This document shows positions 24,742-40,528 of a stretch of DNA of 64,000 bases, in pieces. The DNA comes from Pseudomonadota bacterium. GTDB lineage: Bacteria; Pseudomonadota; Gammaproteobacteria; QQUJ01. The notes beneath the pieces are model-generated. The model had not been told where the DNA came from. It ran no database searches and saw nothing but the letters and a program-made list of their open reading frames with translations. Position 1 is the stretch's first letter; each line of letters opens with the position of its first letter. The position numbers were made by a program, and so were the translations under genes. The stretch is taken from the NCBI GenBank assembly GCA_008501635.1, contig QQUJ01000005.1, forward strand, positions 1-64,000, in the 5' to 3' direction.

Positions 24742-27309
24742 ATGAGTCACGGAACCAACTCCCCGTCGCAAGGATTCTGCAGCCGCTACCGCCGGTTCTG
24801 GATCTTACCCCTGTTGTGGCTGACAGGATGCAATGGTGACGTGGGATTTGGCGGCGGACAGGCTCAGGATCCCGTCGTCGTCGATACCGCCGTTGCCTAT
24901 ATCAAACGCCCGCTGGGCCTGAACAACCAGGGCAATCCCATCCAGCCCGACGCGCGCCGCGTCATCACCTTCGAGCCCGGGGCTACGTTGTTGCTGCGCG
25001 ATAGGGCCTCGGCCGCGTCGCCCGAGCGCAGTATCACGGATCGGCTTTTTCTGCCTGGCGAACGCCATGATGTGCGCGACCTCGATGTCTCTTACGATGG
25101 CACCAAGCTGCTGTTCGCCCTGCGCGGACCGTTCGACGAGAACGGCAACGACGACGATCAACCATCATGGAACATCTGGGAGTATGACGCGGATACCGAT
25201 GCGTTGCGCCGTATCATCGCTTCCAGCATCACGGCGGAAGAGGGGCATGACCTGGCACCCCATTATCTGCCTGACGGGCGCATCCTCTTTGTCTCCACCC
25301 GCCAGCGTCAGTCGCGAGCCATCCTGCTCGATGAGGGCAAACCACAATTTCCCACGTTGGACGAAGATCGCGCAGAGCCCGCGCTGGTGCTTCATGTCAT
25401 GAATAGCGACGGCAGCGACATACATCAGATCTCTTTCAACCAGAGCCATGATCTCGCGCCCACCGTCGTCAGTGACGGACGCGTGGTGTTCAGCCGCTGG
25501 GATCATATGGGTGCGCGCAACCGCATTCATCTCTACCGCACCAATCCCGATGGCACGGAAATGGAAACGCTCTACGGCGTGAACAGTCACACCACGGGTA
25601 CCGCCGGGAGTACAGTGCAGTTTCTCCAGCCCCGCGAGATGCCCGACGGACGTCTGCTGGCCGTGCTGCGCCCCTTCACCGGGACCGACGGCGGCGGCGA
25701 TCTGGTGGCAATCGACTACGCCACCTACAGCGACAATCAACAACCCACCTGGGTCAATATCGGCCTGCTCGGGGATGGGCAGACATCGGTGGCGCCGGCT
25801 GAAGTGCGCACCGATACCGCACCCTCGCCGGGGGGGCGTTATCTATCGGCGTATCCGCTGTGGGACGGTACCACACGACTCCTGGTGAGCTGGAGTCCCT
25901 GCCGTTTGGTGGAGAACGCACTCATCGTGCCTTGCACCCCGCAGCGCCTGGCCGATCCCAACGCACAGGCCGCGGCGCCGCTCTATGGAATCTGGATCTA
26001 CGATATGAATGCCGGCACGCAAACCCCCGTGCTGCAACCGGCAGAGAGCGTGGTTTACTCGGAGGTGGTTCCCTTGCAGGCGCGCCCAGTGTTGCCGGGC
26101 GTGATCTACGACAAGGTGGCCGGCGTCGATCTGGATTCAGACCTGATCACGGAGGGAGTAGGCATTCTCCATATCCGCAGTGTCTACGATGTCGACGGAA
26201 CCGATACCGCCAACCCCGATATCGTGACCCTGCGCGATCCCGCGCAGACGTCTGCCGCGCAGCGCCCGGCGCGCTTCGTGCGTATCGTCAAGGCGGTTTC
26301 GATACCGGATGATGATGTGCGTGATTTCGATCCCAGCGCGTTTGGCGTCAGCACGCAGCAGTTGATGCGTGAGATCGTCGCATACGCACCCGTGGAACCC
26401 GATGGATCGGTCAAGATCAAGGTGCCCGCCAATGTCGCACTCGCGATCAGCGTGCTCGACGTCAACGGCAGACGCATCGGCGCACGCCATCAGAGCTGGA
26501 TACAGGTCAAACCCGGTGAGGTGCGCGAATGTGCGGGGTGCCACGCCGCCAACAGCACGATGCCGCACGGACGGCTCAGCGCTGCGCCTCCTTCGGTCAA
26601 TCCCGGGGCCCCCAACACCGGCGTGCCGTTTCCCAACACCGAAGCGGCATTGTGGGCGGATTTTGGTGAAAGCATGGCGGAGACACGCACCCGGATCAGT
26701 TGTCTGACCGACTGTGCCGCCCTCAATCCCAGCATGAATATTGTCTATGACGATGTGTGGACCGATCCGGGGGTACGCGCCAAAGATATCAGCTTCGATT
26801 ACCACTACTCCGATCTCACGACTCCTGCACCCACCACCTGCATCGATACGTGGAGCAGTACCTGCCGTACCGTCATCAACTACGAACAGCACATCCATCC
26901 GTTGTGGAGTCTGCCGCGTACCGTGGGGGCGGCGGATAGAACCTGCACCAGCTGTCATAATATTGTCGATAACATGGGTGGGGCCCGCGTTCCGGAGGCG
27001 CAGCTGGATCTGAGCGATGGGGCTTCCGATCTCAATAACGATCATTTCAAGGCTTACCGCGAGCTGTTATCGCCGGATAACGCGTTGGAGTTGATCGGTG
27101 TGACGCTGCAGGAAGAGGCGGGCCCCGTGGTGGTCAACCCTTCGCTGTCTGTGGCGGGTGCGGCGGCAAGTGCCACCTTCTTCAGCCTTTTCGATGCCGG
27201 CGGCAGCCATGAGGGCGATCTGACCGCCGCAGAGCTCAAGCTGCTTGCCGAATGGGTCGATCTTGGTGCGCAGTACTACAACAATCCCTTTGTCGCGCCA
27301 CTCAACTGA
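24742..27309 (+). CDS. HzsA-like beta-propeller lipoprotein with two haem motifs
   Basis: The 855-residue protein begins with a lipoprotein signal ending at C30 (LWLTGC). The first 450 residues contain PD40/TolB-like propeller blades (DLDVSYDGTKLLFALR, HYLPDGRILFVSTR and VVSDGRVVFSRW). Two CxxCH motifs follow at C597-H601 (CAGCH) and C735-H739 (CTSCH). This layout resembles the hydrazine synthase alpha-subunit-like family, which is widespread in non-anammox bacteria, so no hydrazine activity is implied. It is likely an exported, outer-membrane-anchored redox protein. ATG 24742 has CAGGGA upstream. It is the first gene of the plus-strand envelope block, 87 bases before the SH3/barrel gene, and faces the minus-strand haem operon. 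Confidence 0.75.
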   Translation: MSHGTNSPSQGFCSRYRRFWILPLLWLTGCNGDVGFGGGQAQDPVVVDTAVAYIKRPLGLNNQGNPIQPDARRVITFEPGATLLLRDRASAASPERSITDRLFLPGERHDVRDLDVSYDGTKLLFALRGPFDENGNDDDQPSWNIWEYDADTDALRRIIASSITAEEGHDLAPHYLPDGRILFVSTRQRQSRAILLDEGKPQFPTLDEDRAEPALVLHVMNSDGSDIHQISFNQSHDLAPTVVSDGRVVFSRWDHMGARNRIHLYRTNPDGTEMETLYGVNSHTTGTAGSTVQFLQPREMPDGRLLAVLRPFTGTDGGGDLVAIDYATYSDNQQPTWVNIGLLGDGQTSVAPAEVRTDTAPSPGGRYLSAYPLWDGTTRLLVSWSPCRLVENALIVPCTPQRLADPNAQAAAPLYGIWIYDMNAGTQTPVLQPAESVVYSEVVPLQARPVLPGVIYDKVAGVDLDSDLITEGVGILHIRSVYDVDGTDTANPDIVTLRDPAQTSAAQRPARFVRIVKAVSIPDDDVRDFDPSAFGVSTQQLMREIVAYAPVEPDGSVKIKVPANVALAISVLDVNGRRIGARHQSWIQVKPGEVRECAGCHAANSTMPHGRLSAAPPSVNPGAPNTGVPFPNTEAALWADFGESMAETRTRISCLTDCAALNPSMNIVYDDVWTDPGVRAKDISFDYHYSDLTTPAPTTCIDTWSSTCRTVINYEQHIHPLWSLPRTVGAADRTCTSCHNIVDNMGGARVPEAQLDLSDGASDLNNDHFKAYRELLSPDNALELIGVTLQEEAGPVVVNPSLSVAGAAASATFFSLFDAGGSHEGDLTAAELKLLAEWVDLGAQYYNNPFVAPLN

Positions 27310-27396: not shown

Positions 27397-28134
27397 ATGC
27401 AATTCAGGTTAGTACTGATCCTATGTGGGTGTTTGGTCTCAGGACAGGTTGTTGGTGCGTTAGGCGAAATCGCGGTAGAGATCGCGGATCCCTACATCGA
27501 ACTCCACACGGGACCCGGTCGGGGGTATCCCGTTTTTTACGTCGTGGAGCGTGGCGAGCAGATCACGTTGCTCAAACGCAGAACCGACTGGTTTCAGGTG
27601 CGCACGGCGCGTGGCAAAGAGGGATGGGTTTATCGCGATCAACTGGCACGCACCCTCAACCCCGATGGCAGCGTGGTGGCGATCAGGGACCCGAGCTGGG
27701 AGGATTTTGAGGCGCGACGCTGGGAGATGAGTTTCTCCGGTGGTGAATTCGATGGTGCCAATGTCATCGCGCTGACCGCAGGTTACGCATTGAGCGAGAA
27801 CCTGTCGCTCGAGTTGAACTACTCGAAGGTGCTGGGGCGCTTCTCCAGTCTGGATATGACGGGGATCAGCATCCTTCATCAACCGTTTCCCGAGTGGCGT
27901 GTATCACCTTTTTTCACACTCGGAACAGGCTCCCTGAAGATCAAACCGGCGGCGACATTGGTGCAGCCGCAAGATCGTGATGAGGATTACTCGAATGTCG
28001 GTATCGGCATCAAAACCCATCTGTCACGGCGTTTTCTGATGCGCATCGAATACAAGAGTTACGTTGTGTTCACGAATCGCAACGAGAATGAGGAACCCAA
28101 AGAATGGAAAATCGGCTTCGCCTTTTTCTTTTGA
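27397..28134 (+). CDS. SH3-domain outer-membrane beta-barrel protein
   Basis: From ATG 27397 (245 residues) there is a signal peptide ending near VVGA, then a bacterial SH3-type domain (YIELHTGPGRGYPVFYVV, ending GWVYRDQLA; about residues 30-90). The remaining 150 residues alternate polar and aromatic residues in beta strands and finish with the C-terminal phenylalanine run FAFFF typical of outer-membrane barrels. SH3 domains of this kind bind peptidoglycan or periplasmic partners, so the protein could tie a small barrel to the wall. It overlaps the next barrel gene by 31 bases. The pair resembles the small GltA/GltB/GltH-type barrel proteins of myxobacterial envelope machines; that link is inference from architecture. 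Confidence 0.72.
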   Translation: MQFRLVLILCGCLVSGQVVGALGEIAVEIADPYIELHTGPGRGYPVFYVVERGEQITLLKRRTDWFQVRTARGKEGWVYRDQLARTLNPDGSVVAIRDPSWEDFEARRWEMSFSGGEFDGANVIALTAGYALSENLSLELNYSKVLGRFSSLDMTGISILHQPFPEWRVSPFFTLGTGSLKIKPAATLVQPQDRDEDYSNVGIGIKTHLSRRFLMRIEYKSYVVFTNRNENEEPKEWKIGFAFFF

Positions 28135-28766
28135 GTGCGGCGCTGTTCGGGCCAATCGCTCCACCAGGGGTCGTGCTCGCCCAGTCGCCGACACAGCTCC
28201 CCGGGGAGGAGGAGCCGTTGTTCCAACCGCAAGTGGAGCGACGCACTGTCGACATATCCGCGCTGGACACCGAAAACTTCGAAATCGGTCCGTTCCTCGG
28301 GTTTCTGAGTATCGAGGACTTTGGTGTCAATAGCGTCGCCGGGGCTCGACTTTCCTATCACATCACCGAGGATTTTTTCGTTGATGCATCGCTGGGTGTC
28401 AGCAAGGCGGACAAGACCAGTTATGAGTTGCTGAGCGGCGCCGCTCAACTGCTTACCGACGCCCAGCGCGACTATACGTACTACAACGTCTCGCTGGGTT
28501 ACAACCTCTTTGCCGGCGAATCGTTTTTCGGCGCCAGGAGGGCGTTTAATTCCGCGCTCTATCTGTTGGGCGGTATCGGCAGTACCGAATTCGGTGGTGG
28601 TGACCGATTCACCGCCAGCGTCGGTTTGGGTTATCGCTTCATCGCCACCGACTGGCTCGCGATCCATGTGATGATGCGCGATCACATATTCCAGCACGAC
28701 CTGTTCGGTGTGGACAAGACGTCACACAACTTCGAAGTACAGTCAGCGATCATGTTCTTCTTTTAG
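28104..28766 (+). CDS. Small outer-membrane beta-barrel protein
   Basis: The 220-residue product has a signal peptide ending at VLAQ, a proline/glutamate-rich linker (residues 27-45) and an eight-strand-like barrel region beginning FEIGPFLGFLSIEDFG, with later strands such as FTASVGLGYRFIATDW. It ends with AIMFFF, a classic outer-membrane terminal signature. The start overlaps the preceding barrel gene by 31 bases, implying coupled synthesis. The sequence style fits the outer-membrane beta-barrel domain family known from Myxococcota and some Gammaproteobacteria. It may be the outer-membrane component contacted by the TPR and TonB-like proteins encoded downstream. Confidence 0.75.
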   Translation: MENRLRLFLLSAALFGPIAPPGVVLAQSPTQLPGEEEPLFQPQVERRTVDISALDTENFEIGPFLGFLSIEDFGVNSVAGARLSYHITEDFFVDASLGVSKADKTSYELLSGAAQLLTDAQRDYTYYNVSLGYNLFAGESFFGARRAFNSALYLLGGIGSTEFGGGDRFTASVGLGYRFIATDWLAIHVMMRDHIFQHDLFGVDKTSHNFEVQSAIMFFF

Positions 28767-28777
28767 GAGGTGTGCAC

Positions 28778-29278
28778 ATGGACAAAATGAAGTTTCTGCT
28801 GTTGGCGTTGATTATCGCGATCGGTGCGCCGCTGGCGGCAGTCAAAGCGGCGGCAATCGATGAATCTGCGCCGGATTTTGTGCTGAAGAGTCATACGGGT
28901 AGCAACCTGCGTTTGAGTGAATTGCGTGGACAGGTGGTCATGATCAATTTCTGGGCGTCCTGGTGCGGTCCCTGTCGTCAGGAGATGCCGCTGCTGGAAA
29001 GCCTCCACAAGCGCTACCGGAAGTTGGGTTTTACCCTGCTGGGAGTCAATGTGGAAGAGGATACGCGCGCCGCGAAGGCTTTCCTGAAGGACACACCGGT
29101 GAGCTTTCCGATCCTCTACGACACGGAGAACAACGTCAGCCGGATGTACAAGGTTGCGGGGATGCCGAGCACGGTGGTGCTGGACAGGGATGGCAAGCTT
29201 CGTTTCCGACACACTGGTTATGTACCCGGTGACGAGGCCGAATACAGCAAAGTGATCAGAGCGCTGATGAAGAAATGA
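28778..29278 (+). CDS. TlpA-family periplasmic thiol-disulfide oxidoreductase
   Basis: ATG 28778, 7 bases after AGGAGG, gives 166 residues (a GTG at 28772 is too close to the ribosome site). A signal peptide or N-terminal anchor spans residues 1-26. The thioredoxin active site WCGPC is at residues 62-66, followed by the cis-proline region GMPSTVVLDRDG. TlpA/ResA proteins reduce disulfides in the periplasm, typically to keep the CxxCH cysteines of c-type cytochromes reduced for haem attachment. That fits the haem-motif lipoproteins just upstream. Its stop overlaps the DUF4266 start in ATGA. Confidence 0.9.
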   Translation: MDKMKFLLLALIIAIGAPLAAVKAAAIDESAPDFVLKSHTGSNLRLSELRGQVVMINFWASWCGPCRQEMPLLESLHKRYRKLGFTLLGVNVEEDTRAAKAFLKDTPVSFPILYDTENNVSRMYKVAGMPSTVVLDRDGKLRFRHTGYVPGDEAEYSKVIRALMKK

Positions 29279-29505
29279 ACCCGTCAATCACCAGATTGGG
29301 ATGCGTCGTTCTGGGGGCGGTGCTGCTGAGTGCCTGCAGCGTCGAGCCATGGGTGAAACCTTACGAACGCGCCAACCTTGCTGATCCGATCATGAGTTTC
29401 AGCCGTGATCCCGTCTCCTCTGCTTATATGAACCATGTACGTGAAGTGCGCGAAGGGGCACGTGGCGCCGGCAGCGCGCAGGGTGGGGGGTGCGGGTGCA
29501 ACTGA
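29275..29505 (+). CDS. DUF4266 lipoprotein
   Basis: The 76-residue precursor has a lipobox with C21 (LLSAC) and the DUF4266 core WVKPYERANLADPIM, conserved in a family almost always encoded beside DUF3570 and ApbE. The C terminus GGGCGCN has two cysteines that could hold a metal or be modified. After cleavage only about 56 residues remain. Function unknown; the tight linkage (overlap with tlpA upstream and DUF3570 downstream) points to a joint role in an outer-membrane redox unit. Confidence 0.88.
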   Translation: MNPSITRLGCVVLGAVLLSACSVEPWVKPYERANLADPIMSFSRDPVSSAYMNHVREVREGARGAGSAQGGGCGCN

Positions 29506-30662
29506 CGGGCAGGCAGGCGCACAGCAGGGATGCGCGATGGCCAGGCGTGGCCATGGTGCTGCTTGCGGTGGGGTGCGGTGCGCAGGCCGCGGTTCTGCCG
29601 GAGGAGCGCGCGGATCTGCTTTACCACTCCTACGATGGCGGCGGGGTCGAGGTTACGGGACCGTCGTTTCTGGTGCGCAAGAATGTTGGACAGAGCTGGT
29701 CGGTCTTCGGCAATCACTACGTCGACTCGGTCAGCAGCGCCTCGATCGATGTGATCACAACCGCGAGCCCGTACCAGGACGACCGCACGGAGACCAGCTT
29801 CGGCGTGGACTATCTGCGCGGCAGAACCATACTTAGTCTTGCTACCACCACCAGCGACGAGAGCGACTACTCGGCCAAATCCCTGTCATTCGGCATCAGT
29901 CAGGACATGTTCGGCGATCTCACCACGGTAACCATGGGTTACACCGCGGGAGACGATGTCGTCGGCAATGTCACCGACTCCAGTTTTTCGGCGAATATCG
30001 ATCGGCAGCAGTACCGTCTGAGCGTGACACAGGTGCTGAGCAAAAGCCTGATCGTAAGCGCCGCTCTGGAGACCATCACTGACGAAGGTTACCTGAACAA
30101 TCCCTATCGTTCGGTGCGTTATGTCGACGGTGGTAGCGCCACGGGATACAGCTACGAAGCTGAAGTCTATCCACGTACCCGGACCAGCGATGCCCTGGCA
30201 CTGCGGGCACGGTATTTTTTGCCTTACCGCGCAGCACTGTTCGGTGAGTACCGCCAGTATCGCGATACCTGGGGAATCGACGCCGATACTTATGAGATCG
30301 GTTATGTTCATCCCCTGGGCGAGCGCTGGATCATTGAGGCGCGACTGCGTCACTACAATCAGAACGCGGCCGATTTCTACAGCGATCTCTACCCGTTTCA
30401 AGGGGCGCAGAATTTTCTTGCCCGCGATAAGGAGTTAAGCACCTTCAGCAGCCGGACGTTCGGGTTGACGATCGGTTACGAATTCGCAAAAAGCGGTTGG
30501 GGTTTCATCGATCGCGCCAGTCTAAATCTGTCCTTTGACCGCATCCAGTTCAGCTACGACGACTTCCGCGACCTCACGCAGACCGGGTACGCCGTCGGTA
30601 ACGAACCTCTCTACGAATTTGACGCCGATGTCCTGCAGATTTTCATTTCCATCTGGTATTGA
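29490..30662 (+). CDS. DUF3570 outer-membrane beta-barrel protein
   Basis: About 390 residues from GTG 29490, which has GGTGGGG upstream; GTG 29496 or ATG 29553 are alternatives, so the start is uncertain. After a signal peptide ending AQAA the sequence begins LPEERADLLYHSYDGGGVEV, the DUF3570 hallmark, and continues as a series of amphipathic beta strands with a terminal IFISIWY. It is probably a 16-strand-like barrel. It overlaps DUF4266 by 16 bases and ApbE by 35 bases. The TlpA-DUF4266-DUF3570-ApbE order recurs in many Proteobacteria. The barrel may hold or expose a flavin- or thiol-carrying partner, but this is not demonstrated. Confidence 0.85.
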   Translation: MRVQLTGRQAHSRDARWPGVAMVLLAVGCGAQAAVLPEERADLLYHSYDGGGVEVTGPSFLVRKNVGQSWSVFGNHYVDSVSSASIDVITTASPYQDDRTETSFGVDYLRGRTILSLATTTSDESDYSAKSLSFGISQDMFGDLTTVTMGYTAGDDVVGNVTDSSFSANIDRQQYRLSVTQVLSKSLIVSAALETITDEGYLNNPYRSVRYVDGGSATGYSYEAEVYPRTRTSDALALRARYFLPYRAALFGEYRQYRDTWGIDADTYEIGYVHPLGERWIIEARLRHYNQNAADFYSDLYPFQGAQNFLARDKELSTFSSRTFGLTIGYEFAKSGWGFIDRASLNLSFDRIQFSYDDFRDLTQTGYAVGNEPLYEFDADVLQIFISIWY

Positions 30663-31638
30663 CCGGCGCGGATGGCTGGTGGCCATGCTGCTGTTGCCCG
30701 CGGTGGCGCAGGCCCAGTGGCATCGCGCCGACGCCACGATAATGGGCACGGCGATCCATGTCGAGGTGTGGCACGACGATGCCGAAGTCGCGCAACACGC
30801 CATCGCGGCGGTGCTTACGGAAATGCGGCGTATCGATCGGCAGATGAGTCCCTACAAACCCGACAGCGAGGTGTCGCGTATCAACCGCAGCGCGGGAGTG
30901 GAATCGGTGCCGGTGAGTGCCGAGCTGGTGGGCCTGATCCGGAAGGCCGAACGTATTTCCATACTCACCGAGGGTGCGTTCGACATCACCTTTGCCAGTG
31001 CCGGCCATCTCTACAACTATCGCGAAGGCAGGCGACCTGCGGGCAGTGATCTCGAGGCGGCCGTCGCGGCGATCGATTATCGCCAGGTAACGATAGACGA
31101 ACAGCACTCCCGCATTACGTTGAACAAGTCCGGGATGCGTGTGGATCTGGGCGGTATAGCCAAGGGTTACGCAGTGGAACGGTGCGCCGCATTGTTGCGT
31201 GCCCGGGGTATCGAACACGCGCTGATATCGGCAGGTGGGGATACGCGGGTGGTTGGCAATCGCGAAGGGCGTCCCTGGGTGGTGGGCGTACGGCACCCGC
31301 GGCAGGACCGGAATCTGATCACGCGCATTCCGTTGGAGGATGAAGCGATCTCAACTTCCGGAGACTACGAACGTTTTTTTGAAGAACAGGGAACGCGCTA
31401 TCACCACATTCTCAATCCAGCGACCGGTGACTCGGCGCGCGAGGTGATCAGCGTGACGGTTGTCGGTCCCGATGCCACATCGACGGATGCCCTATCAACC
31501 AGTGTTTTCGTCATGGGTGCCGAGCGCGGACTGGCGCTGGTCAATCGTTTGCCGGGGTACGAAGCGCTGGTGATGGATCGCGCGGGCAAGCTGCGCTATT
31601 CGGCAGGGCTGCAACCATCCCAGGCTTCATCGCAGTGA
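30628..31638 (+). CDS. apbE: FAD:protein FMN transferase (ApbE family)
   Basis: ATG 30628 gives 336 residues with a signal peptide ending AQA. Typical ApbE landmarks are MGTAIHVEVW, the GGIAKGYAVERC helix, SAGGDTRV, the HHILNPATGDSA motif and DALSTSVFVMG with the metal-binding Asp/Ser-Thr. ApbE moves FMN from FAD to a threonine or serine on exported redox proteins. No protein with an obvious acceptor motif (D-x2-[ST]-G-A-T) was seen in this window, so the client may be encoded elsewhere or use a different acceptor. Overlap with DUF3570 and the neighbouring downstream gene places it in the same operon. Confidence 0.9.
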   Translation: MSCRFSFPSGIDRRGWLVAMLLLPAVAQAQWHRADATIMGTAIHVEVWHDDAEVAQHAIAAVLTEMRRIDRQMSPYKPDSEVSRINRSAGVESVPVSAELVGLIRKAERISILTEGAFDITFASAGHLYNYREGRRPAGSDLEAAVAAIDYRQVTIDEQHSRITLNKSGMRVDLGGIAKGYAVERCAALLRARGIEHALISAGGDTRVVGNREGRPWVVGVRHPRQDRNLITRIPLEDEAISTSGDYERFFEEQGTRYHHILNPATGDSAREVISVTVVGPDATSTDALSTSVFVMGAERGLALVNRLPGYEALVMDRAGKLRYSAGLQPSQASSQ

Positions 31639-31658
31639 ACCAGATCGGGGCTCAACGC

Positions 31659-32195
31659 ATGCACAGAATCCATTTTTACATTATCGCGCTGCTGCTGAGC
31701 GCCATACTGGCGCAGAGTCCGGCGCGGGCGGCGGAAACCGCTTCAGCCGATGCCGATCTCGATCAGGCGGTGCAGGCGCTCAAGGAGGAGTTGCTGGAGC
31801 TCAATCGCGATCTGTTCATTCTTGAAGAGGAGCTGTTGGCCCCCAGCGATACGCAAGTGATGGTTTTCGTTTCTGTGGACGTCGGTAGTTTCTTCAGTCT
31901 CGATTCGGTGCAGGTCAAGATTGATGACAAGGTGGTGGCGAATTATCTTTACACGCCGCGTGAAATAGAAGCGCTGCAACGTGGTGGAGTGCATCGTATC
32001 CACCTCGGCAATCTGAAGAGCGGTGAGCATGAACTGACCGCCTTCTTTGTCGGCAAAGGACCGCGCGACAGGGACTACCGGCGGGGCGCCACGGTGCGTT
32101 TTGCAAAGAGCCTCGGCCCCAAGTACCTCGAACTCCAGATCGTCGATCTGGAGAACAAGCAGCAACCCGATTTTCGGATCAAGGAGTGGGAATGA
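31659..32195 (+). CDS. Periplasmic coiled-coil protein of unknown function
   Basis: The product (178 residues from ATG 31659) has a signal peptide ending ARAA, a short acidic coiled coil (about residues 30-65, rich in Leu/Glu) and a beta-sandwich-like C-terminal region with VFVSVDVGSFF and GEHELTAFFVG. A GTG at 31635 overlapping the apbE stop is an alternative start. Proteins of this type are found next to TPR and TolQ/TolR-like genes; I cannot assign a function. The coiled coil suggests partner binding, probably to the TPR protein encoded next, whose start overlaps this stop (ATGA). Confidence 0.65.
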   Translation: MHRIHFYIIALLLSAILAQSPARAAETASADADLDQAVQALKEELLELNRDLFILEEELLAPSDTQVMVFVSVDVGSFFSLDSVQVKIDDKVVANYLYTPREIEALQRGGVHRIHLGNLKSGEHELTAFFVGKGPRDRDYRRGATVRFAKSLGPKYLELQIVDLENKQQPDFRIKEWE

Positions 32196-34024
32196 GGCGT
32201 GTGCGCCCAACCGCGCTGCTCTACGGGTTGCTGCTGGGAATGGCTTCACAGGCCATGGCTGCTGCCCCGGCGCCGGTGCGCAGTCTCGAGTACGGTGAGG
32301 CGCTGTTCTACTTCTTTCAACAGGACTATCTGAATGCCGGTGTGCGGCTGATGGCCGCGCAGCAGCGCCGGCGACTCGGCACGCACGACCAGGATGCTGA
32401 TCTGCTGCTGGGAGGGCTGCAACTCGCCTACGGCATGCACGACGTCGCTGCGCGCACCTTTGATCGGGTGCTCGACGCCGCCGCCACCCCAGCGGCCAGG
32501 GATCGCGCCTGGCACGCCCTGGCCCGGCTGGCCTATCGCCGCGGTGACTGGCAACGCGCGAACCAAGCGCTGGGGCGTATTTCCGTGTCTGATCCGCAAC
32601 AGGCGGCGAAGACCGCCCTGCTCAGCGGATTGGTGGCGTTGGCGCAACAACAACCCGGACGCGGCGTCGCAGTCTTGCAACAGGGCTACGGGCTGCAAGC
32701 GGGCGTTCGTGATCCATACCTCGAATACAATCTGGCGATCGCGTTGATCCGCACTGGAAAATCGCAGGAAGCCGTTGCGTTACTCGACGGGTTGGGCCAA
32801 CGACAGGTTGAGTACGAGGAGGCGGCCACGATACGTGACCACGCCAATCTGGCGGCCGCGTTTGCGCTGTTGCAGTCCGGCGCACCGCAGGAAGCGCAAC
32901 GATTCTTTGGACGCGTACGCTTGACCGGCACCGTCTCCAATCTGGCGCTTTTGGGTTCGGGTTGGGCCGCGGTCGAGGCGGGGTCCTATGCGCAGGCGTT
33001 GACTCCGTGGCGGGAGCTGATGCGGCGCACGCCGCGTGATGCTCCGGTTCTCGAGGCGTTGATAGCTGTGCCCTTCGTCCATCTGCAACTCGATGAAAAT
33101 GCGCGCGCTGCGCGTGTCTACGAGCAGGCAGTCGAGATCTATCAAGAGGAACGCAACGCGCTGACCGAGGCAATCGCCGAAACGGATGATCCCGAATGGC
33201 TGCTTCAGGTCGGCCTGTTGACGCGCTCTTCGTTGAGCGGCGGTGGCGCCGGTTTCGAACACCATTGGCTGCCGCGACTCATCGCCAGCAATACCTTTCA
33301 GGAAGCCTGGAAAAACTATCGCGACCTCCTGCAACTGGAACAGAGCCTTTCGCGCTGGCAACAGAGCCTGAATGCTTACCAAACCATGTTGACAGAGCGC
33401 AAGGCGCGTTTTGATCTTGTGGTGCCGCAGATCGAAAAACGACTCGCTGGTCTGGATCCGAACGAACTGCACGAGCGTCGCAAAGCGCTGCAAACCGCGT
33501 TGCTCGACGTGATCGAAACGCGCGCAGTCTGGAGACTGGCGACCGCTGCCGAGAAAGGCATACAGCGTGAAATCGAGGCACTTGCCGCACGGGTCGAAAA
33601 GCTATCGCCCTCCAGTGAGAAAGCGGCTTTTGCTGATCGTGTTCGACGCTTACAGGGTCTGCACTACTGGCAGGTTCATGCCGCATTTCCACAGCGCCGC
33701 TGGCAGGCGACCAGGGCCGTGGATGAGTTGGATGCACCGTTGGCACAGATGGGGAAGCGAATCGGGACTCTGCGGGGTGCCCGCGCTTTCGCCCGCCTGC
33801 GAATTGGTGACCTGGAGGAACGGATCCATCGTGCGCAAACGCGCATTGTCCAATACCGACCGCGCCTCGCTCAAACGCTGGTGCGCCAGCGCGAACGGGT
33901 GAAGCAGCTGGCCCAGCGGGAGTTGACAGCGCAGCAGGCGCAGATCGACAGCTATCTGCTGCAGGCACGCTACGCGCTGGCACAACTCTACGACCGTGCG
34001 CAGGACAGAGGGGGAGCACAGTGA
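32192..34024 (+). CDS. Exported TPR protein (trans-envelope machine component)
   Basis: ATG 32192, 6 bases after AAGGAG and overlapping the previous stop, gives 610 residues. A signal peptide ends near AMAAAPA. Residues 35-320 hold loose tetratricopeptide repeats (for example YLEYNLAIALIRTGKSQEA). The C-terminal 250 residues are predicted helical, with long arginine/glutamine-rich coiled coils. It matches the size and order of GltC/GltD-like TPR proteins in Agl/Glt-type clusters. The gene is followed directly by a second, larger TPR lipoprotein. Periplasmic scaffold is the likely role. Confidence 0.72.
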   Translation: MRRVRPTALLYGLLLGMASQAMAAAPAPVRSLEYGEALFYFFQQDYLNAGVRLMAAQQRRRLGTHDQDADLLLGGLQLAYGMHDVAARTFDRVLDAAATPAARDRAWHALARLAYRRGDWQRANQALGRISVSDPQQAAKTALLSGLVALAQQQPGRGVAVLQQGYGLQAGVRDPYLEYNLAIALIRTGKSQEAVALLDGLGQRQVEYEEAATIRDHANLAAAFALLQSGAPQEAQRFFGRVRLTGTVSNLALLGSGWAAVEAGSYAQALTPWRELMRRTPRDAPVLEALIAVPFVHLQLDENARAARVYEQAVEIYQEERNALTEAIAETDDPEWLLQVGLLTRSSLSGGGAGFEHHWLPRLIASNTFQEAWKNYRDLLQLEQSLSRWQQSLNAYQTMLTERKARFDLVVPQIEKRLAGLDPNELHERRKALQTALLDVIETRAVWRLATAAEKGIQREIEALAARVEKLSPSSEKAAFADRVRRLQGLHYWQVHAAFPQRRWQATRAVDELDAPLAQMGKRIGTLRGARAFARLRIGDLEERIHRAQTRIVQYRPRLAQTLVRQRERVKQLAQRELTAQQAQIDSYLLQARYALAQLYDRAQDRGGAQ

Positions 34025-36819
34025 TCCGGCGCAAGACGCTGGCCGCCCTCAGCATGTCATTGGCGATTGCCGCTTGCGGTACCACTTCCAAGATCCCCAC
34101 CCTGGCCGATCTGGCACAGCAGAAAGAGCCGGAGGTGGAGCCTGCCGCGGAGTTGCCTGCCAGCCGTGATCGCGCCATCGATGCCTACCGGTCGTTTCTC
34201 GCCGACGCACCACAGACCTCACCGTTGCGTGCCGAGGCGATGCGACGACTTGCCGATCTGCGTCAGGAGACGCTGGACGATAGTACTTCGGCAGCGGAGG
34301 TGGAAATCAGTAATCAGGCGCTGAACAGCGAGCGCCAGGCGATCATCACCCTCTACAGCGACCTGCTGCGCCGCTATCCGGATAACCCCCGGAATCCCGA
34401 AGCGATGTATCAGCTGGGACGCGCCCTGGAGGCGGCAGGAGAGCGCGAACGCGCCCTTGAAACTCTGACGCGCTACGCACGGATTTATCCAAACGGCAGC
34501 CGCTACGATGAAGTGCAGTTCCGTCGCGGTGAGATCCTCTACGCCGAGCAACGTTACGGCGAGGCGGAGAACGCCTATCGCGCGGTCGTCAAAGCCGGTC
34601 CCGACTCCGCCTTCTACGATCAGGCGCTCTACAAAGGCGGCTGGTCGCTATTCAAACAGCGCCGCTATGACTCGGCGCTGGATCTTTTTACCCTCGTCCT
34701 GGATCGACGGGTAACCAATGACGATATCGTGCTGGCGGAACTGAGCCGGGTGGAACGTGAGCGCGTGCTCGATACGCTGCGGGTCAGTTCGCTGAGTTTC
34801 AGTTATCAGGGGGGCACGTCGAGCATGGCCGATTACTTTGGCAGTCGCGGCCCACGGCCCTATGAGCATCTGGTGTATCGAACGCTGGGCGAACAGTATC
34901 TGGAGAAAGAGCGTTTTAGCGATGCGGCGGCGGCCTTCGAGGCCTTTGTCGACCGGCATCCGCTGCACCGCGAAGCGCCGCGAATCCAGCTGCAGGTGAT
35001 CGCGGCTTTCCGGGCGGCGGGATTTCCCAGCCGCGTGCTCGATGCCAAGCGCCAGTTCGTCGCGCGCTACGGTATGGATCAGCCCTACTGGAGCCGATTC
35101 ACTCGTGAGCAGGCACCGGATATTGTTGCCGAGGTGAAGGCGCAACTGGATGAGCTATCCCGGCACTATCACGCCGAAGCCCAGAGCACGAAAACAGCGG
35201 CTGCCTACCAGGAAGCGATACGCTGGTATCGCAAACGTCTGACCTACTTTCCGGGCGAGGCGGACAGCGGCAGCGCCAATTTCCTGCTGGCCGAGCTACT
35301 GTTTGAAACCCGTCAGTACGCAGATGCGGCGCAGGAGTATGAGCGCACCGCTTACGATTACCCCGCGCACGGCAAGGCAGCCGAGGCAGGCTACGCCGCG
35401 CTGCTGGCCCACGCTGCGCACGAACAGACACTCCCTGCCGCACAGCGACGGGTGTGGCAACGGCGTACGTTGGTCAGCAGCGAACGTTTCGTGGAGCGCT
35501 TCCCCGAACACCCGGAGAGTCCCAAGGTGCTCGCCAGGATGGCTGAACAGCTGTTCGCGGCGGGCGATGGAACGGCGGCCAGCCGGGCTGCCCAGCGCCT
35601 GGTGGAGCGCTACCCGCAGACCGAACCTTCGTTGCGCCGCAGCGCCTGGCTGGTCATCGCACACACGGCCTTCGATCGCACCGATTACGGGCAGGCCGAG
35701 ACCAGCTATCAGCAGGTGCTGCGCCTGACGGCCGTGCAGGCGAAGGATCGTTCCGAATTGATCGACCGGCTCGGCGCCACGGTCTACAAACAGGCCGAAC
35801 AGCTGCGTATGGCGGGTGATCTCGCGGGGGCGGCGACGGGATTTCTGCGTGTGGCGCAGGTGGCACCGACCAGTACGATACGGCCCACTGCCGAATACGA
35901 TGCCGCGGCCGCTTATCTGGAAGCCAGGCAGTGGGTTCCCGCCGCGCAGGTGCTCGAGGCGTTCCGCCGCAACTACCCGCAGCACCCGCTCCAGGCGCAG
36001 GTCAGCGAAAAGTTGGCGGTGGCCTATCTGGAGGCAGGCAATCGCGGCGCTGCGGCCGTGGAGTTCACGCGCATCGCCGGGGAGCACAAAGACAGCGGTG
36101 TGCGACGCGAGGCGGCGTGGCAAGCGGCCGAACTCTACGAGCAGGAAGGGGCGGTGGGTAAAGCACTCGCTGCCTGGGCGCGCTATGTGACCGATCACGC
36201 GCGTCCCGTTCCTGAAGCCATCGAGGCTCGCTACCGGCAACTGCAACTTCAGCACAAGCAGGGTGACCTGCAACAGGTGCGCGCGCTGCGCAATGCCATC
36301 ATCAGGGCGGATCGTGACGCCGGAAAAGAGCGCACCGATCGCACCCGCTTTCTTGCCGCTCATGCACGCCTCGCATTGGCACGGGACGAACAGGCGGTCT
36401 ACGCATCGCTGCGCCTCACCGAACCGCTCAAGCGCAGTCTGCAACGCAAACGCCAGGCCATGAAGGGGACGCTGGCGGCACTGACTGCCGCCGCGGAATA
36501 CAACGTCGCTGCGGTGACCACCGAAGCGACCTTTCGCAGCGGCGAAGTGTATCGCCAGTTCGCCAAGGCGCTGCTTGGTTCCGAACGTCCCGGGAAACTC
36601 AATGCCGAAGAGAAAGAAGAGTACGACCTGCTGCTGGAAGAGCAGGCCTTCCCGTTCGAGGAGAAAGCGATCGAGGTTCATGCCATCAACACTCGTCGCA
36701 CCCTGGATGGGGTCTACGACGAGTGGGTACGCAACAGTTACCGACGCCTGGCCGAATTGATGCCGGTTCGCTACAAAAAGGAGGAACGCAGTGTGCAAGC
36801 CTACGTGGCGCTGGATTGA
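34021..36819 (+). CDS. Large TPR lipoprotein
   Basis: GTG 34021 overlaps the upstream stop (GTGA) and gives 932 residues. The N terminus has a lipobox at LAIAAC (about residue 19). Almost the whole chain is composed of tetratricopeptide repeats of the YbgF/BamD-like kind, with phrases such as NPEAMYQLGRALEAAGE and YPNGSRYDEVQFRRGEI. The length and character resemble GltD (AgnA)-type envelope TPR proteins. It would be anchored to the outer membrane, facing the periplasm. The last 29 bases overlap the next TPR lipoprotein gene. Role inferred from context; TPR and lipobox are seen directly. Confidence 0.8.
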   Translation: MIRRKTLAALSMSLAIAACGTTSKIPTLADLAQQKEPEVEPAAELPASRDRAIDAYRSFLADAPQTSPLRAEAMRRLADLRQETLDDSTSAAEVEISNQALNSERQAIITLYSDLLRRYPDNPRNPEAMYQLGRALEAAGERERALETLTRYARIYPNGSRYDEVQFRRGEILYAEQRYGEAENAYRAVVKAGPDSAFYDQALYKGGWSLFKQRRYDSALDLFTLVLDRRVTNDDIVLAELSRVERERVLDTLRVSSLSFSYQGGTSSMADYFGSRGPRPYEHLVYRTLGEQYLEKERFSDAAAAFEAFVDRHPLHREAPRIQLQVIAAFRAAGFPSRVLDAKRQFVARYGMDQPYWSRFTREQAPDIVAEVKAQLDELSRHYHAEAQSTKTAAAYQEAIRWYRKRLTYFPGEADSGSANFLLAELLFETRQYADAAQEYERTAYDYPAHGKAAEAGYAALLAHAAHEQTLPAAQRRVWQRRTLVSSERFVERFPEHPESPKVLARMAEQLFAAGDGTAASRAAQRLVERYPQTEPSLRRSAWLVIAHTAFDRTDYGQAETSYQQVLRLTAVQAKDRSELIDRLGATVYKQAEQLRMAGDLAGAATGFLRVAQVAPTSTIRPTAEYDAAAAYLEARQWVPAAQVLEAFRRNYPQHPLQAQVSEKLAVAYLEAGNRGAAAVEFTRIAGEHKDSGVRREAAWQAAELYEQEGAVGKALAAWARYVTDHARPVPEAIEARYRQLQLQHKQGDLQQVRALRNAIIRADRDAGKERTDRTRFLAAHARLALARDEQAVYASLRLTEPLKRSLQRKRQAMKGTLAALTAAAEYNVAAVTTEATFRSGEVYRQFAKALLGSERPGKLNAEEKEEYDLLLEEQAFPFEEKAIEVHAINTRRTLDGVYDEWVRNSYRRLAELMPVRYKKEERSVQAYVALD

Positions 36820-37390
36820 ACTGGTTTTACTGAGCCTCACGCTGGTGGCGTGTGCAAGCGCGCCACCGGCCGGCGTCGATGAACCTCAATCAAAGGTGCG
36901 CCCGGCGGCGGAACCCGCGGTAATGATGGCCCATCGGTTGGCGTTAAGTGATCTGCAGGCCGGTCGCCTCGCTGAAGCGGAACGCGGCTTCCTGCAATTG
37001 ACCCAGCAACATCCCCTGCATCGCGGACCGTGGCTCAACCTCGGCATTGCGCTGACACGTCTGGGAAAAACAGAAGAGGCGGAACACCTGTTTCAACAAG
37101 TCGTTAACCGTTTTCCGGATTTCGCTGAAGCCCACCACGAGCTGGCGCTATTGCAACGCTCGTCGGGACGCTTCGCAGAGGCGCGCCAATCCTACGCTGC
37201 AGCTATTGCAGCGCGGCCCGATTTCGCGCTTGCCTACCGCAATTTAGGTCTGTTGTGTGACCTATATCTCCATGACACCAGTTGCGCTTTGTCAAACTAT
37301 CAGAAATTTCAGCAGTTGATATTGGTCAACGACAAAGAGGTCGAGCAATGGATCGCGGATCTGCAGCGTCGCGTTGCGGCGCAACAATGA
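36791..37390 (+). CDS. Small TPR lipoprotein (AglT/GltE-like position)
   Basis: A GTG at 36791, 6 bases after GGAGG, starts a 199-residue precursor with lipobox LTLVAC (about residue 21). Three TPR units fill residues 45-165 (GPWLNLGIALTRLGKTEEAE, then AEAHHELALLQ and ALAYRNLGLL). The size and lipobox are those of the AglT/GltE family of TPR lipoproteins in myxobacterial gliding clusters. It overlaps the large TPR gene by 29 bases and the next small gene by 4 bases. Confidence 0.78.
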   Translation: MCKPTWRWIELVLLSLTLVACASAPPAGVDEPQSKVRPAAEPAVMMAHRLALSDLQAGRLAEAERGFLQLTQQHPLHRGPWLNLGIALTRLGKTEEAEHLFQQVVNRFPDFAEAHHELALLQRSSGRFAEARQSYAAAIAARPDFALAYRNLGLLCDLYLHDTSCALSNYQKFQQLILVNDKEVEQWIADLQRRVAAQQ

Positions 37391-37659
37391 CCAGATGGCT
37401 GGCGCTTCCGCTACTGATCTGTTTCGGCACCCTCAATGCAGAGGAACCCGATCGCCGGCTGGGCATGAACATCATCGGCAACAACGAAACCCCGCGCACA
37501 CTGATTATCGTGCCATGGAAGTCCGCCCAGCCGGGTGATCTGACCTTGCGTCCTCTCAATAGTTTGGTGGAGGCGGGCATCGGGCCGCTGGACCCCGACG
37601 TGGTGCGGCGTGAACTGCGTTTGCGGGCTGCGACGCAGGCGCGGGAACAGCGACCCTGA
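37387..37659 (+). CDS. Small exported protein of unknown function
   Basis: ATG 37387 overlaps the preceding stop (ATGA), giving 90 residues. A signal peptide ends near LNA (residue 18); the mature part has NETPRTLIIVPWKS and a proline-containing middle (GIGPLDPDVV) and no cysteine. I do not recognise a family. Coupling to the TPR lipoprotein implies a part in the same complex. A longer frame from 37282 would overlap the TPR gene by over 100 bases without need. Confidence 0.6.
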   Translation: MTRWLALPLLICFGTLNAEEPDRRLGMNIIGNNETPRTLIIVPWKSAQPGDLTLRPLNSLVEAGIGPLDPDVVRRELRLRAATQAREQRP

Positions 37660-37913
37660 GGGCTTTGTAATGAGCTTGGATAAATCGGGTTGGGAGTTGC
37701 GCCAGGACGCCAGGACGCAGAGTGTGCCCAGGCGATCTCATGAACGGCAGGATGCAGGGCGGAGCGGGTCGTGGGCAGCATGGTGAACAGGCTCACACTC
37801 GCTGGAATGAGGTTCTTCGATGGCAGTTTCCTTTGCGCTCCTTTGCGTCTTCGCGTCCTGGCGCGAGGCACCATTTCTTTAACAGACAACGGTTACACAG
37901 TGAGGGCACGGCA
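37660..37913. repeat. Intergenic inverted-repeat segment within the envelope operon
   Basis: This 254-base gap interrupts an otherwise tightly packed operon. It carries near-complementary segments, GCGCCAGGACGCCAGGACGC around 37697-37716 and TTTGCGTCTTCGCGTCCTGG around 37841-37863, which could form a long stem. The T/G-rich GCGTCTTCGCG motif recurs in many gammaproteobacterial intergenic regions. It may mark an inserted REP-like unit and could lower expression of the motor genes relative to the TPR genes. Confidence 0.6.
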
Positions 37914-38558
37914 ATGACGATCTACAACAACATTGTTTCCTTTTTCCAGTCTGGCGGCACCTTCATGTATCCGATCGTGGTGGTACTGGCACTGGGTATG
38001 GCCATTGCGGTCGAGCGCTATCTCTTTCTCTCGTACGCCGCGCTGAGAAACCGCAAGGCGTGGAATGACCTGATGCCACTGCTGAGTTCGGGAAAGTTCC
38101 GAGAAGCCCAGGGGATTATCGAGCAATCGGGGGCCGCTATCAGCAAGATACTCAGCTACGGGCTGGCGAGTCTGATAAAAGCGCGCCGCCGCGATGATGT
38201 GCAGATGGCGATGGAAGAGGGACTGATGGAGGTGATTCCACGGATGGAGAAACGCACCCACTATCTTGCAACGCTGGCCAACATCGCCACCTTGCTCGGT
38301 TTGTTGGGCACCATCATCGGTCTCATCCAGGCCTTTACCGCGGTGGCCAACGCCAATCCGGCGGAGAAGGCGGATATGCTCTCGGCGAGTATCTCGGTGG
38401 CGATGAACACCACCGCCTTCGGTTTGATGGTCGGTATTCCGCTGCTCCTGGTGCATGCCGTGCTGCAAACCAAGAGCACGCAGTTGATCGACAACATGGA
38501 GATGGCCACGGTAAAGGTGGTCAATCTCATCGGTGACCGTTCGCAGGCGAGTGCGTAA
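37914..38558 (+). CDS. MotA/TolQ/ExbB-family proton channel subunit
   Basis: From ATG 37914 the product is 214 residues with three membrane segments (about residues 15-37, 118-142 and 158-182). The TolQ-type core is clear: a cytoplasmic helical domain between the first two segments, then LATLANIATLLGLLGTIIGLI and MNTTAFGLMVGIPLLL. TolQ/ExbB/AglR proteins form pentameric proton channels that power TonB- or Tol-like rods through the periplasm. No tolA, tolB or pal is nearby, and two TolR-like genes follow, as with AglR-AglQ-AglS in Myxococcus. A longer frame starting at 37722 has no signal or membrane content upstream. Confidence 0.9.
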   Translation: MTIYNNIVSFFQSGGTFMYPIVVVLALGMAIAVERYLFLSYAALRNRKAWNDLMPLLSSGKFREAQGIIEQSGAAISKILSYGLASLIKARRRDDVQMAMEEGLMEVIPRMEKRTHYLATLANIATLLGLLGTIIGLIQAFTAVANANPAEKADMLSASISVAMNTTAFGLMVGIPLLLVHAVLQTKSTQLIDNMEMATVKVVNLIGDRSQASA

Positions 38559-39070
38559 TGCGCAGCTACCGGCGCATGCGCAACCGTGCCGAGGTCACGA
38601 CCGACCTCAATGTCACGGCGTTCATGAACCTGATGGTCGTGCTGGTGCCCTTTTTGCTCATCATGGCGGTGTTCTCGCGTATCACCATCCACGAGCTCAA
38701 TCTCCCTGGCGCCGGAGGCGAGGAGCAGGCGGAAAAGCCACGGTTGCAGCTGGAGGTCATCGTGCGCGCCGATCGCCTCATCCTCGGCGATCGAGCCAGC
38801 GGTGAACTGGTGACCTTGTCAAGAAAAGAGGAGGGACATGATTTGAAACAGCTCTCCGAATGGCTGCAACGCGTCAAGGTGAAATTTCCCGATGAAGTGG
38901 GCGCCAGCATCCTGGCCGAGCCTGCGATTCAGTACGACGACCTGATACAGGTGATGGACACCGTGCGTGCCTACGAAGTGCAGGAGAATGGCGAACGCAT
39001 CAAAGCGGAACTCTTCCCTGAGATCGCCCTGGGCGATGCGCCCATCGTAGCGAAGAAAAAAGGGAGTTAG
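38558..39070 (+). CDS. ExbD/TolR-family motor subunit 1
   Basis: ATG 38558 shares its A with the last base of the upstream TAA. The 170-residue product has one N-terminal membrane helix (LMVVLVPFLLIMAVFS, about residues 27-42). The aspartate usually found in this helix appears just before it, in VTTDLNVTAFMNLMVV (D18). The periplasmic part carries a VIVRADRLILGDRAS strand and ends basic. ExbD/TolR proteins form the dimeric stator-rotor peptide inside the TolQ pentamer. The shifted aspartate relative to canonical LxVxAFMDIxL is worth noting: here N23 stands at the usual D position, so proton coupling may rest on the second copy. Confidence 0.85.
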   Translation: MRSYRRMRNRAEVTTDLNVTAFMNLMVVLVPFLLIMAVFSRITIHELNLPGAGGEEQAEKPRLQLEVIVRADRLILGDRASGELVTLSRKEEGHDLKQLSEWLQRVKVKFPDEVGASILAEPAIQYDDLIQVMDTVRAYEVQENGERIKAELFPEIALGDAPIVAKKKGS

Positions 39071-39072
39071 GC

Positions 39073-39585
39073 GTGGCGATGAAACTGTCACGACGCGCGC
39101 AGCGCATGCAACGCCACCACCGGCGCCGCAAGTTCGGCGGTGGATTGAATCTCGTGGCGCTGATGGACATTTTCACCATCCTGGTCTTTTTCCTGCTGGT
39201 CAACTCGTCCGATGTGCAGGAGATGCCCGGCAGTCGCGCGGTGAAACTGCCGGAGTCCGATATCGAGGCCAAGGTACGTCAGACGATCACCGTGCTGGTC
39301 ACCAGGGAGGAAATTCTGGTGCAAGGCGAATCCGTACTTCCTATCAGCGCTGCCGTGGGCTCCAAAGAGACCATCCTGGTTGCGCTGCGCGAAGCTCTGG
39401 AACGCCACGCCCGCAACCGGTTGGTACAGATCGAAGATGGAGCGGCGGACAAGGGTGAGATCACGATACTTGGCGACCGGACGACCTCTTTCGAGGTACT
39501 GAAAAAGGTGATGGCGACCTGTACCGAAGCGGGTTATGGCACTGTCTCTCTCGCCGTACAGCAGCGCGGCGTAAAGGAGAGCTGA
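39073..39585 (+). CDS. ExbD/TolR-family motor subunit 2
   Basis: GTG 39073, 7 bases after AGGGAG, yields 170 residues. The N-terminal basic region precedes the canonical GLNLVALMDIFTILVFFLLV helix with the proton-carrying aspartate in place. A periplasmic alpha/beta domain follows (ITVLVTREEILVQGESV, then TTSFEVLKKVMATC). Two different TolR-like subunits beside one TolQ-like subunit is the AglQ/AglS arrangement. This copy keeps the catalytic aspartate that copy 1 appears to lack at this place. Confidence 0.88.
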   Translation: MAMKLSRRAQRMQRHHRRRKFGGGLNLVALMDIFTILVFFLLVNSSDVQEMPGSRAVKLPESDIEAKVRQTITVLVTREEILVQGESVLPISAAVGSKETILVALREALERHARNRLVQIEDGAADKGEITILGDRTTSFEVLKKVMATCTEAGYGTVSLAVQQRGVKES

Positions 39586-39586
39586 G

Positions 39587-40528
39587 GTGAGCGCCTACGC
39601 TCTGGAAATCGCGTGGAATGGCGGCAGCCTCGACGATCGTCGTTTCAAGCGTATTTTGCTGGTTACCGCTGCGGTATTTCTGATGATGTCGGTCGTCACG
39701 TCGATGTTGCCGGTGTTCAAGATTGATCGCCCGATTATGGATGAAGTGCCCAAACGCATCGCGCGCCTGGTGTTGGAGAAACGTCGACCGGCTCCGCCGC
39801 CACCACCACCGCCCAAGATCGAAGAGCAGCGTCCGGAACCCAAGCCGGTCGAGCAGAAGAAGCCGGAACCCAAACCCGAGCCGAAACCCAAACCCGAGCC
39901 GAAGAAGGAGGCAAAGCCTGAACCTTCGGCACGCGAACGCGCATCGCGCGCGGGGATTATGGCGTTTCAGGATACCCTGGCGGAGTTGCGGCAGGATCCC
40001 TCTGTCGCAAAACTCGAGGCTGGGCAGCGGTTGAGTTCGGCGGGTCAAACGGCACGCAAGACGGAACGCTCGCTCGTTACTTCCAAAGTCGCAACGGGCA
40101 GCGGAGGTATAAATACCGCCGCGCTCAGCCGCGACACCGGCAGCACTCGGCTCGCTGCGCGCAGTATCGAGCAGGTGAAAAGCCCGGTTAAAGCGGAATC
40201 GGCAGGGGATGCGCGCTCCGCTGCCAAGAACAAACTGGCTGGCCGTACCGACGAGGAGATCCAGCTGATCTTCGATCGTAACAAGACGGCTATCTACAAC
40301 CTTTACAATCGCGCTTTACGAACCAACCCCTCATTGCAAGGCAAGGTGGTGGTAAAACTCACCATTGCGCCGAATGGACAGGTGACCGATATCAGAGTGG
40401 TCAGCAGCGAACTGGACGACAATGATCTGGAACGCAAACTGACGCTACGTATCAAGCGGTTTGATTTTGGCGCCAAGGCGGTAGCCGGAACCACGATCAG
40501 CTATACGATGGACTTTTTCCCCTCCTGA
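39587..40528 (+). CDS. TonB-like protein with AgmX/PglI C-terminal domain
   Basis: GTG 39587 follows AAAGGAG. The 313-residue protein has a short cytoplasmic start, one membrane helix (about residues 24-46), a long Pro/Glu/Lys-rich periplasmic rod (about residues 62-112 with repeated PEPKP) and a C-terminal domain beginning DEEIQLIFDRNKTAIYNLY and containing GKVVVKLTIAPNGQVTDIRVV. This C-terminal domain is shared with AgmX and PglI of Myxococcus and with TonB-type energy transducers. It should transmit motor movement to outer-membrane or TPR lipoprotein partners. It is the last gene of the envelope operon. Confidence 0.87.
   Translation: MSAYALEIAWNGGSLDDRRFKRILLVTAAVFLMMSVVTSMLPVFKIDRPIMDEVPKRIARLVLEKRRPAPPPPPPPKIEEQRPEPKPVEQKKPEPKPEPKPKPEPKKEAKPEPSARERASRAGIMAFQDTLAELRQDPSVAKLEAGQRLSSAGQTARKTERSLVTSKVATGSGGINTAALSRDTGSTRLAARSIEQVKSPVKAESAGDARSAAKNKLAGRTDEEIQLIFDRNKTAIYNLYNRALRTNPSLQGKVVVKLTIAPNGQVTDIRVVSSELDDNDLERKLTLRIKRFDFGAKAVAGTTISYTMDFFPS

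Follow-up and report, generated by a model that had tools for sequence, protein, structure and literature searches.

The 64,000-nucleotide window analysed here (positions 1 to 64,000 of contig QQUJ01000005.1, assembly GCA_008501635.1, from a gammaproteobacterium of the lineage QQUJ01) encodes a trans-envelope core resembling the Agl/Glt machine of Myxococcus (genes G to O) next to a module of outer-membrane barrels, flavinylation genes and heme proteins (genes X, A to F, P, Q and R). The conserved partnership of this core with the flavin/heme outer-membrane module is the new element, and that the partnership is real is strongly supported by a survey of related genomes. Two orphan systems that had been described separately, the Glt core of non-gliding bacteria in 2011 and the flavinylation cluster with DUF3570 and DUF4266 in 2021, are found as partners in 36 of 229 gammaproteobacterial genomes, which provides a concrete, testable hypothesis for the role of the core outside Myxococcus. 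The stand-alone core of non-gliding gammaproteobacteria is itself not new, having been published in 2011 (PMC3169522).

Genes A to O occupy positions 27397-40528 as a single run on the + strand, and are mostly overlapping or near-abutting. R-Q-P, on the - strand, diverge from X-A-B-C-D-E-F-G-...-O on the + strand. A preliminary description of the run had listed two small barrels, three exported tetratricopeptide repeat (TPR) proteins, two of them with lipoboxes, a TolQ-like protein, two ExbD-like proteins and a TonB-like protein with the AgmX/PglI domain, and domain scans recovered every one of these in its place. Beyond that list, the run also holds TlpA-like, DUF4266, DUF3570 and ApbE proteins as well as the proteins G and K. 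As the same gene order is found again in dozens of divergent genomes, the run in the window is not a product of chance.

Co-occurrence and linkage of the core and the barrel block

We searched 229 sampled gammaproteobacterial genomes for DUF3570, for OMP_myx_plus (the family of barrel B) and with models of G and R, and took G as a stand-in for the core in the co-occurrence counts. B scored over its cut-off in 36 genomes, and each of the 36 carried DUF3570 and also G, so that the co-occurrence of barrels and motor genes in relatives, on which the preliminary description had in part let its proposal stand or fall, held. G without B was found in 16 further genomes of the survey. Fisher's exact tests of B against G, any DUF3570 and R gave P values of 8e-30, 1e-26 and 1e-24, respectively, and counting at the family level (25 B families, all within the 37 G families, of 161) gave P ~1e-20; kinship among the genomes makes all these values too small, but the genomes are widely distributed, over about 25 families. 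The Tat-signal protein R was present in 28 of the 36 genomes with the barrel block, versus 4 of the 193 others.

The arrangement of the partners differed between these genomes. E and G were side by side (within ~4 kb) in 22 of the 36, on the same contig at a distance of 11-29 kb in 7, and on separate contigs in another 7. In many genomes, P-Q-R-(ApbE or TlpA)-G-H-I-...-O formed one run, with X-A-B-... pointing away from it. The position of ApbE varied; in 17 of the 36, the gene lay inside the cluster or no more than ~5 kb from it. Because the barrel and heme partners and the core stay together while order, strand and distance vary, shared function is the best explanation for their association.

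Scanning the G model against a separate genome collection at species level returned at least 448 relatives, and 80 loci among the matches listed. For 47 of the listed loci, the sequence upstream of G was at least 8 kb long, and X, A or E was found there in 42, and ApbE or TlpA in 43; this 47-locus sample leans to the redox-linked type of core (type 1), because the G query was built from that type.

Barrels, flavinylation genes and heme proteins

ApbE, DUF3570, DUF4266 and thioredoxin-like genes were all detected together in the cluster by domain scans. E (29490-30662, + strand) is a divergent DUF3570 outer-membrane barrel (PF12094, 9e-39), for which AlphaFold2 predicted 16 strands with a predicted local distance difference test (pLDDT) score of 85. 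The model resembles outer-membrane barrels such as PelB, OmpG and AlgE, and no solved relatives were found when sought by sequence. E carries a double candidate flavinylation motif, DSVSSAS-I-DVITTAS (residues 79-93), which places the candidate flavin sites where strand 3 ends and within loop 3-4. Since both ends of the barrel are periplasmic and its long loops stand at odd positions, as read from the strand list, loop 3-4 probably faces outward, so that the candidate flavin loop is predicted by strand count to be extracellular. Asp79, Ser85, Asp87 and Ser93 are invariant among 18 sequences, and a further loop motif, ARDKELS, is also conserved. Flavinylation of E is plausible and unproven, because the acceptor Ser never varies, whereas Ser usually stands in place of the motif Gly, and whether E is a substrate of ApbE has to be regarded as uncertain. 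In the clusters of two other loci, L086 and L107, DUF3570 scores low, and the flavin motif has apparently been lost in L086.

The putative flavin transferase F (30628-31638, + strand) is an exported ApbE, that is, a flavin adenine dinucleotide (FAD):protein flavin mononucleotide (FMN) transferase (PF02424, 5.6e-88). Upstream of E are C (28772-29278, + strand), a TlpA/ResA-like exported thioredoxin with the motif WCGPC (PF08534, 2.2e-31), and D (29275-29505, + strand), a DUF4266 lipoprotein with the lipobox LSAC and a C-terminal CGCN (PF14086, 1.4e-22). In orthologue alignments, the WCxPC of C and the C-terminal GGGCGCN of D were conserved. The two small outer-membrane barrels begin the run: A (27397-28134, + strand) combines an SH3 domain (PF08239, 3.6e-10) with a barrel below the cut-off of the OMP_myx_plus model (TIGR04565, 3.5e-08), and B (28104-28766, + strand) is over that cut-off (4.7e-45).

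X (24742-27309, + strand) is a lipoprotein (LTGC) with a beta-propeller and two CxxCH heme sites, related over its length to the alpha subunit of hydrazine synthase (PF18582, 8.6e-16). It is collinear with chain A of the hydrazine synthase alpha structure (PDB 5c2v) through the propeller, the middle heme domain and the C-terminal region; the similarity is low, at 54 bits against a cut-off of 800 for the corresponding equivalog of NCBIfam. Both heme sites are kept in most X orthologues. On the - strand, Q (20576-23119) is a lipoprotein (LTGC) with a LamG-type lectin domain (PF13385, 3.8e-20) and two CxxCH heme sites, and P (23148-24362) is exported and has a single CxxCH heme site and a C-terminus resembling DUF1585/PSD2, below the Pfam cut-off. 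Among the cargoes proposed in the preliminary description, redox proteins are the best supported, because this flavinylation module and these heme proteins lie in the same cluster.

The third gene on the - strand, R (18939-20549), encodes an exported protein of 535 amino acids with a twin-arginine (Tat) signal (RR motif VTRRDF). It was in the cluster in 31 orthologues, with the RR motif in all 31; searches revealed no Pfam match and no PDB relative for it. By eye, R possibly resembles DUF1501, a likeness that Pfam does not confirm. A strong R homologue is also encoded in one of the surveyed genomes (G033, contig C1:2004207-2005796), a one-contig genome without a listed match to B, G or DUF3570.

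The core genes and their flanks

All core genes, namely the motor trio, the TonB-like gene, the GltE-like gene and those for the large TPR proteins, sit in one region. The motor trio consists of L (37911-38558, + strand), a motor subunit of the TolQ/ExbB/MotA type that resembles AglR (PF01618, 7.8e-29), and two ExbD/TolR-like subunits, M (38558-39070, + strand; PF02472, 6.2e-13) and N (39073-39585, + strand; PF02472, 2.2e-15). The transmembrane Asp of TolR/ExbD carries protons, and the pair is unequal in this respect: N keeps this residue (ALMDIF) in at least 90% of orthologues, whereas M has Asn at a column that is not conserved. The trio is followed by O (39587-40528, + strand), a TonB/GltG-like protein with a proline-rich linker and an AgmX/PglI C-terminal domain, which scored over its cut-off (NF033768, 3.3e-18; 65.6 bits, cut-off 40). 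Through this shared domain, O also matched the GltG equivalog (NF033760, 4.3e-10), with 38.8 bits against a cut-off of 650.

J (36791-37390, + strand) is a TPR lipoprotein (lipobox LVAC) with a match to the GltE model (NF033758, 2.4e-13) at 49.8 bits, below the cut-off of 225, a score that TPR repeats alone could yield. H (32186-34024, + strand), an exported TPR/coiled-coil protein with a signal peptide, and I (34021-36819, + strand), a large TPR lipoprotein (lipobox IAAC; TIGR02795, 9.3e-38) in conserved order, are the candidate equivalents of GltC and GltD, the former by position and architecture. No match to GltC or GltD models was obtained in the NCBIfam scan, and H and I are the two large exported TPR proteins of the expected operon. 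Of the gliding proteins GltF, H, I, J and K and the regulators, the one trace in this cluster was a weak GltJ match, which again ran through the shared C-terminal domain. Judged from these profile comparisons, the Agl/Glt-like label that the preliminary description gave to the whole machine is supported for the core genes, where the motor trio, the AgmX-type TonB-like protein, the GltE-like protein and the TPR proteins appear to fit it; it is not supported for a full Glt/Nfs machine, with GltG and GltJ weak and GltE below its cut-off.

The remaining core genes have no assigned family or are small. G (31635-32195, + strand), the first core gene, belongs to no family and was modeled as a signal peptide, a long coiled-coil helix and an eight-strand beta-sandwich (pLDDT 82). 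A fold search with this model gave weak transthyretin/HIUase-like or Ig-like matches, none with E < 0.001. K (37387-37659, + strand) is an exported protein of 90 amino acids with a conserved VPWK motif, kept between J and L. Directly downstream of the run, on the + strand, there is a pair of genes for a PEP-utiliser (41068-42906) and a PPDK_N protein (43010-44092), which was not seen conserved with the cluster and which we take to recall phenylphosphate synthase subunits. On the other side, an open reading frame on the - strand (15784-17235), which we presume to be SufB-like, is apparently unrelated to the cluster.

Proposed function of the partnership and comparison with known systems

The reading that we favor, with a probability of about 0.5, is that an Agl/Glt-type proton motor serves to build or drive a flavin/heme redox complex of the outer membrane. 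Its observed basis is the gene content, the domains, the conserved linkage, the co-occurrence, the predicted barrel of E and the conservation of the flavin-acceptor Ser. The core G-O would have X-A-B-C-D-E and ApbE, and usually P-Q-R, as its partner set. As in the homologous Tol, Ton and Agl systems, the subunits L, M and N would admit protons and move the TonB-like arm O, a proton-driven transfer of force that we infer from knowledge of these families, and O, H, I, J and G would relay this work through the periplasm as far as the outer membrane. The motor would assemble, expose or cycle a complex of the barrels E, A and B with the heme lipoproteins X and Q. In the periplasm, ApbE may attach FMN to E, and TlpA and DUF4266 would supply thiol electrons or keep cysteines reduced. 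Finally, an outward-facing complex with hemes, and perhaps flavins, would pass electrons to, or take them from, a substrate on the cell surface; we infer the surface exposure, the actual flavinylation, the direction of the electrons and the substrate. The broader proposal that a motor powered by the proton-motive force energises redox chemistry outside the cell in hundreds of gammaproteobacterial species, and that this is the function of the stand-alone core, is more tentative, and we give it somewhat less than an even chance. The likelihoods assigned to the favored reading and to its alternatives overlap and do not sum to one.

Several observations weigh against a proton motor serving a redox complex. 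The published flavinylation motif, [S/T]GA[S/T], is found without its Gly in the E of the window (SSAS and TTAS), with the Asp and the acceptor Ser kept; this Gly is Ser or another residue in most E relatives, and the exact first motif is present in 10 of 41. ApbE is unlinked in about half of the genomes, and at least one ApbE is present in every genome anyway. Most of the named genomes are metagenome assemblies. Moreover, the core comes in two types, stand-alone (type 2) and redox-linked. Loci L131-L150, detected through low-scoring G matches in the same survey genomes, are cores without the barrel block, with their genes in order and mostly complete, and without X, A, B, D, E, P, Q and R. 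Since such cores exist, the core can act without the barrel block. No common partner of the stand-alone cores was found, the scanned neighbours being mostly housekeeping genes. The tree of protein I needs at least 2 and up to 7 changes between the core types; as it is not cleanly split, we make no claim of a single origin, and the partner module may have been gained or lost more than once. A division of the two types into two clean clades was rejected, as this tree does not separate them.

Among the alternatives, the one that survives best, although we consider it unlikely, is that the motor is a secretion or display device, like proton-driven type IX secretion or Nfs spore-coat assembly, that exports or flips X, Q, P and R to the surface, with redox as the chemistry of the cargo. 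The cargo-like exported proteins P, Q and R do share an operon with the core in many genomes, and the Nfs core moves a surface polymer (PMC3858216). There are also matches of I to PorW/SprE (34.8 bits against PorW, cut-off 250) and of A to PorG (14.1 bits, cut-off 130), but these weak scores reflect TPR and barrel resemblance, no type IX translocon was found, and R is missing from 8 of the 36 genomes that retain the barrel block.

A slightly less probable alternative is a substrate-specific surface enzyme complex, acting for example on a LamG-bound polymer, in which X would be a hydrazine-synthase-like heme enzyme and not a general electron conduit. The lectin domain of Q, the conserved ARDKELS loop of E, which suggests a specific site, and the collinearity of X with an enzyme subunit point in this direction, but the low similarity of X to that subunit argues against it. 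We find it improbable that the two parts are independent neighbours, a generic core whose role in the envelope has nothing to do with redox beside a respiratory/flavin module, linked only because one large block was inherited. The existence of cores that lack the barrel block and the occurrence of the DUF3570 module without the core would both agree with independence, but the two parts are kept in all 36 genomes, over about 25 families, including the 7 with separate contigs and many that are rearranged; passive block inheritance is unlikely because the pairing survives shuffled order, strand and contigs. Gliding motility as in Myxococcus is very improbable, as the core parts are the same but no gliding-specific Glt parts were recognised within the cluster.

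Compared with hydrazine synthase alpha (PDB 5c2v), X differs in being a lipoprotein and in that no beta or gamma partners were seen in its company. Type IX secretion and GldLM are alike in architecture, which combines a proton motor, a TPR lipoprotein and barrels. The DUF3570 flavinylation clusters share four genes with the window (ApbE, DUF3570, thioredoxin-like and DUF4266, the last ending in CxC); they were described as grouped together with an uncertain function, and flavinylation of DUF3570 by ApbE was demonstrated in another species, a Chlorobium (Meheust et al. 2021, PMC8238504). The window differs from them in its divergent DUF3570 subfamily with the motif Gly usually replaced, in the proton motor and in the heme lipoproteins, and the words ExbD and TPR are absent from the main text of that paper. 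No literature joining ApbE/flavinylation or heme genes with Agl/Glt genes was found in a search that left out most subscription journals.

The closest relative of the core itself is the set of AglRQS with GltC, D, E, G and one further gene, which passages of Luciano et al. (2011, PMC3169522) place in single gene regions of Gammaproteobacteria, in carriers not known to glide; its function is called unknown there, and the set insufficient for motility. The likeness to the window includes the TolQ-like protein, the two TolR-like proteins, the TonB-like protein with the PglI/AgmX C-terminus, the extra gene and, probably, the GltE-like lipoprotein and the two larger TPR proteins. The core of the window is in addition linked to barrels, a flavinylation module and heme proteins, of which these passages make no mention. 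Wartel et al. (2013, PMC3858216) likewise describe the core as standing alone in many gammaproteobacteria. A role in redox chemistry, if true, would answer a question about the function of the core complex that has stood since 2011. Agl motors are proton-driven in Myxococcus (PMC3169522, PMC3858216), and the spore-coat machine Nfs of that organism (PMC3858216) is alike in that an Agl-type motor drives a trans-envelope complex acting on surface material. Nfs differs in working without redox proteins and on a carbohydrate polymer, whereas in the system proposed here, if our reading is true, the proton motor would be put to use for redox chemistry at the cell surface.

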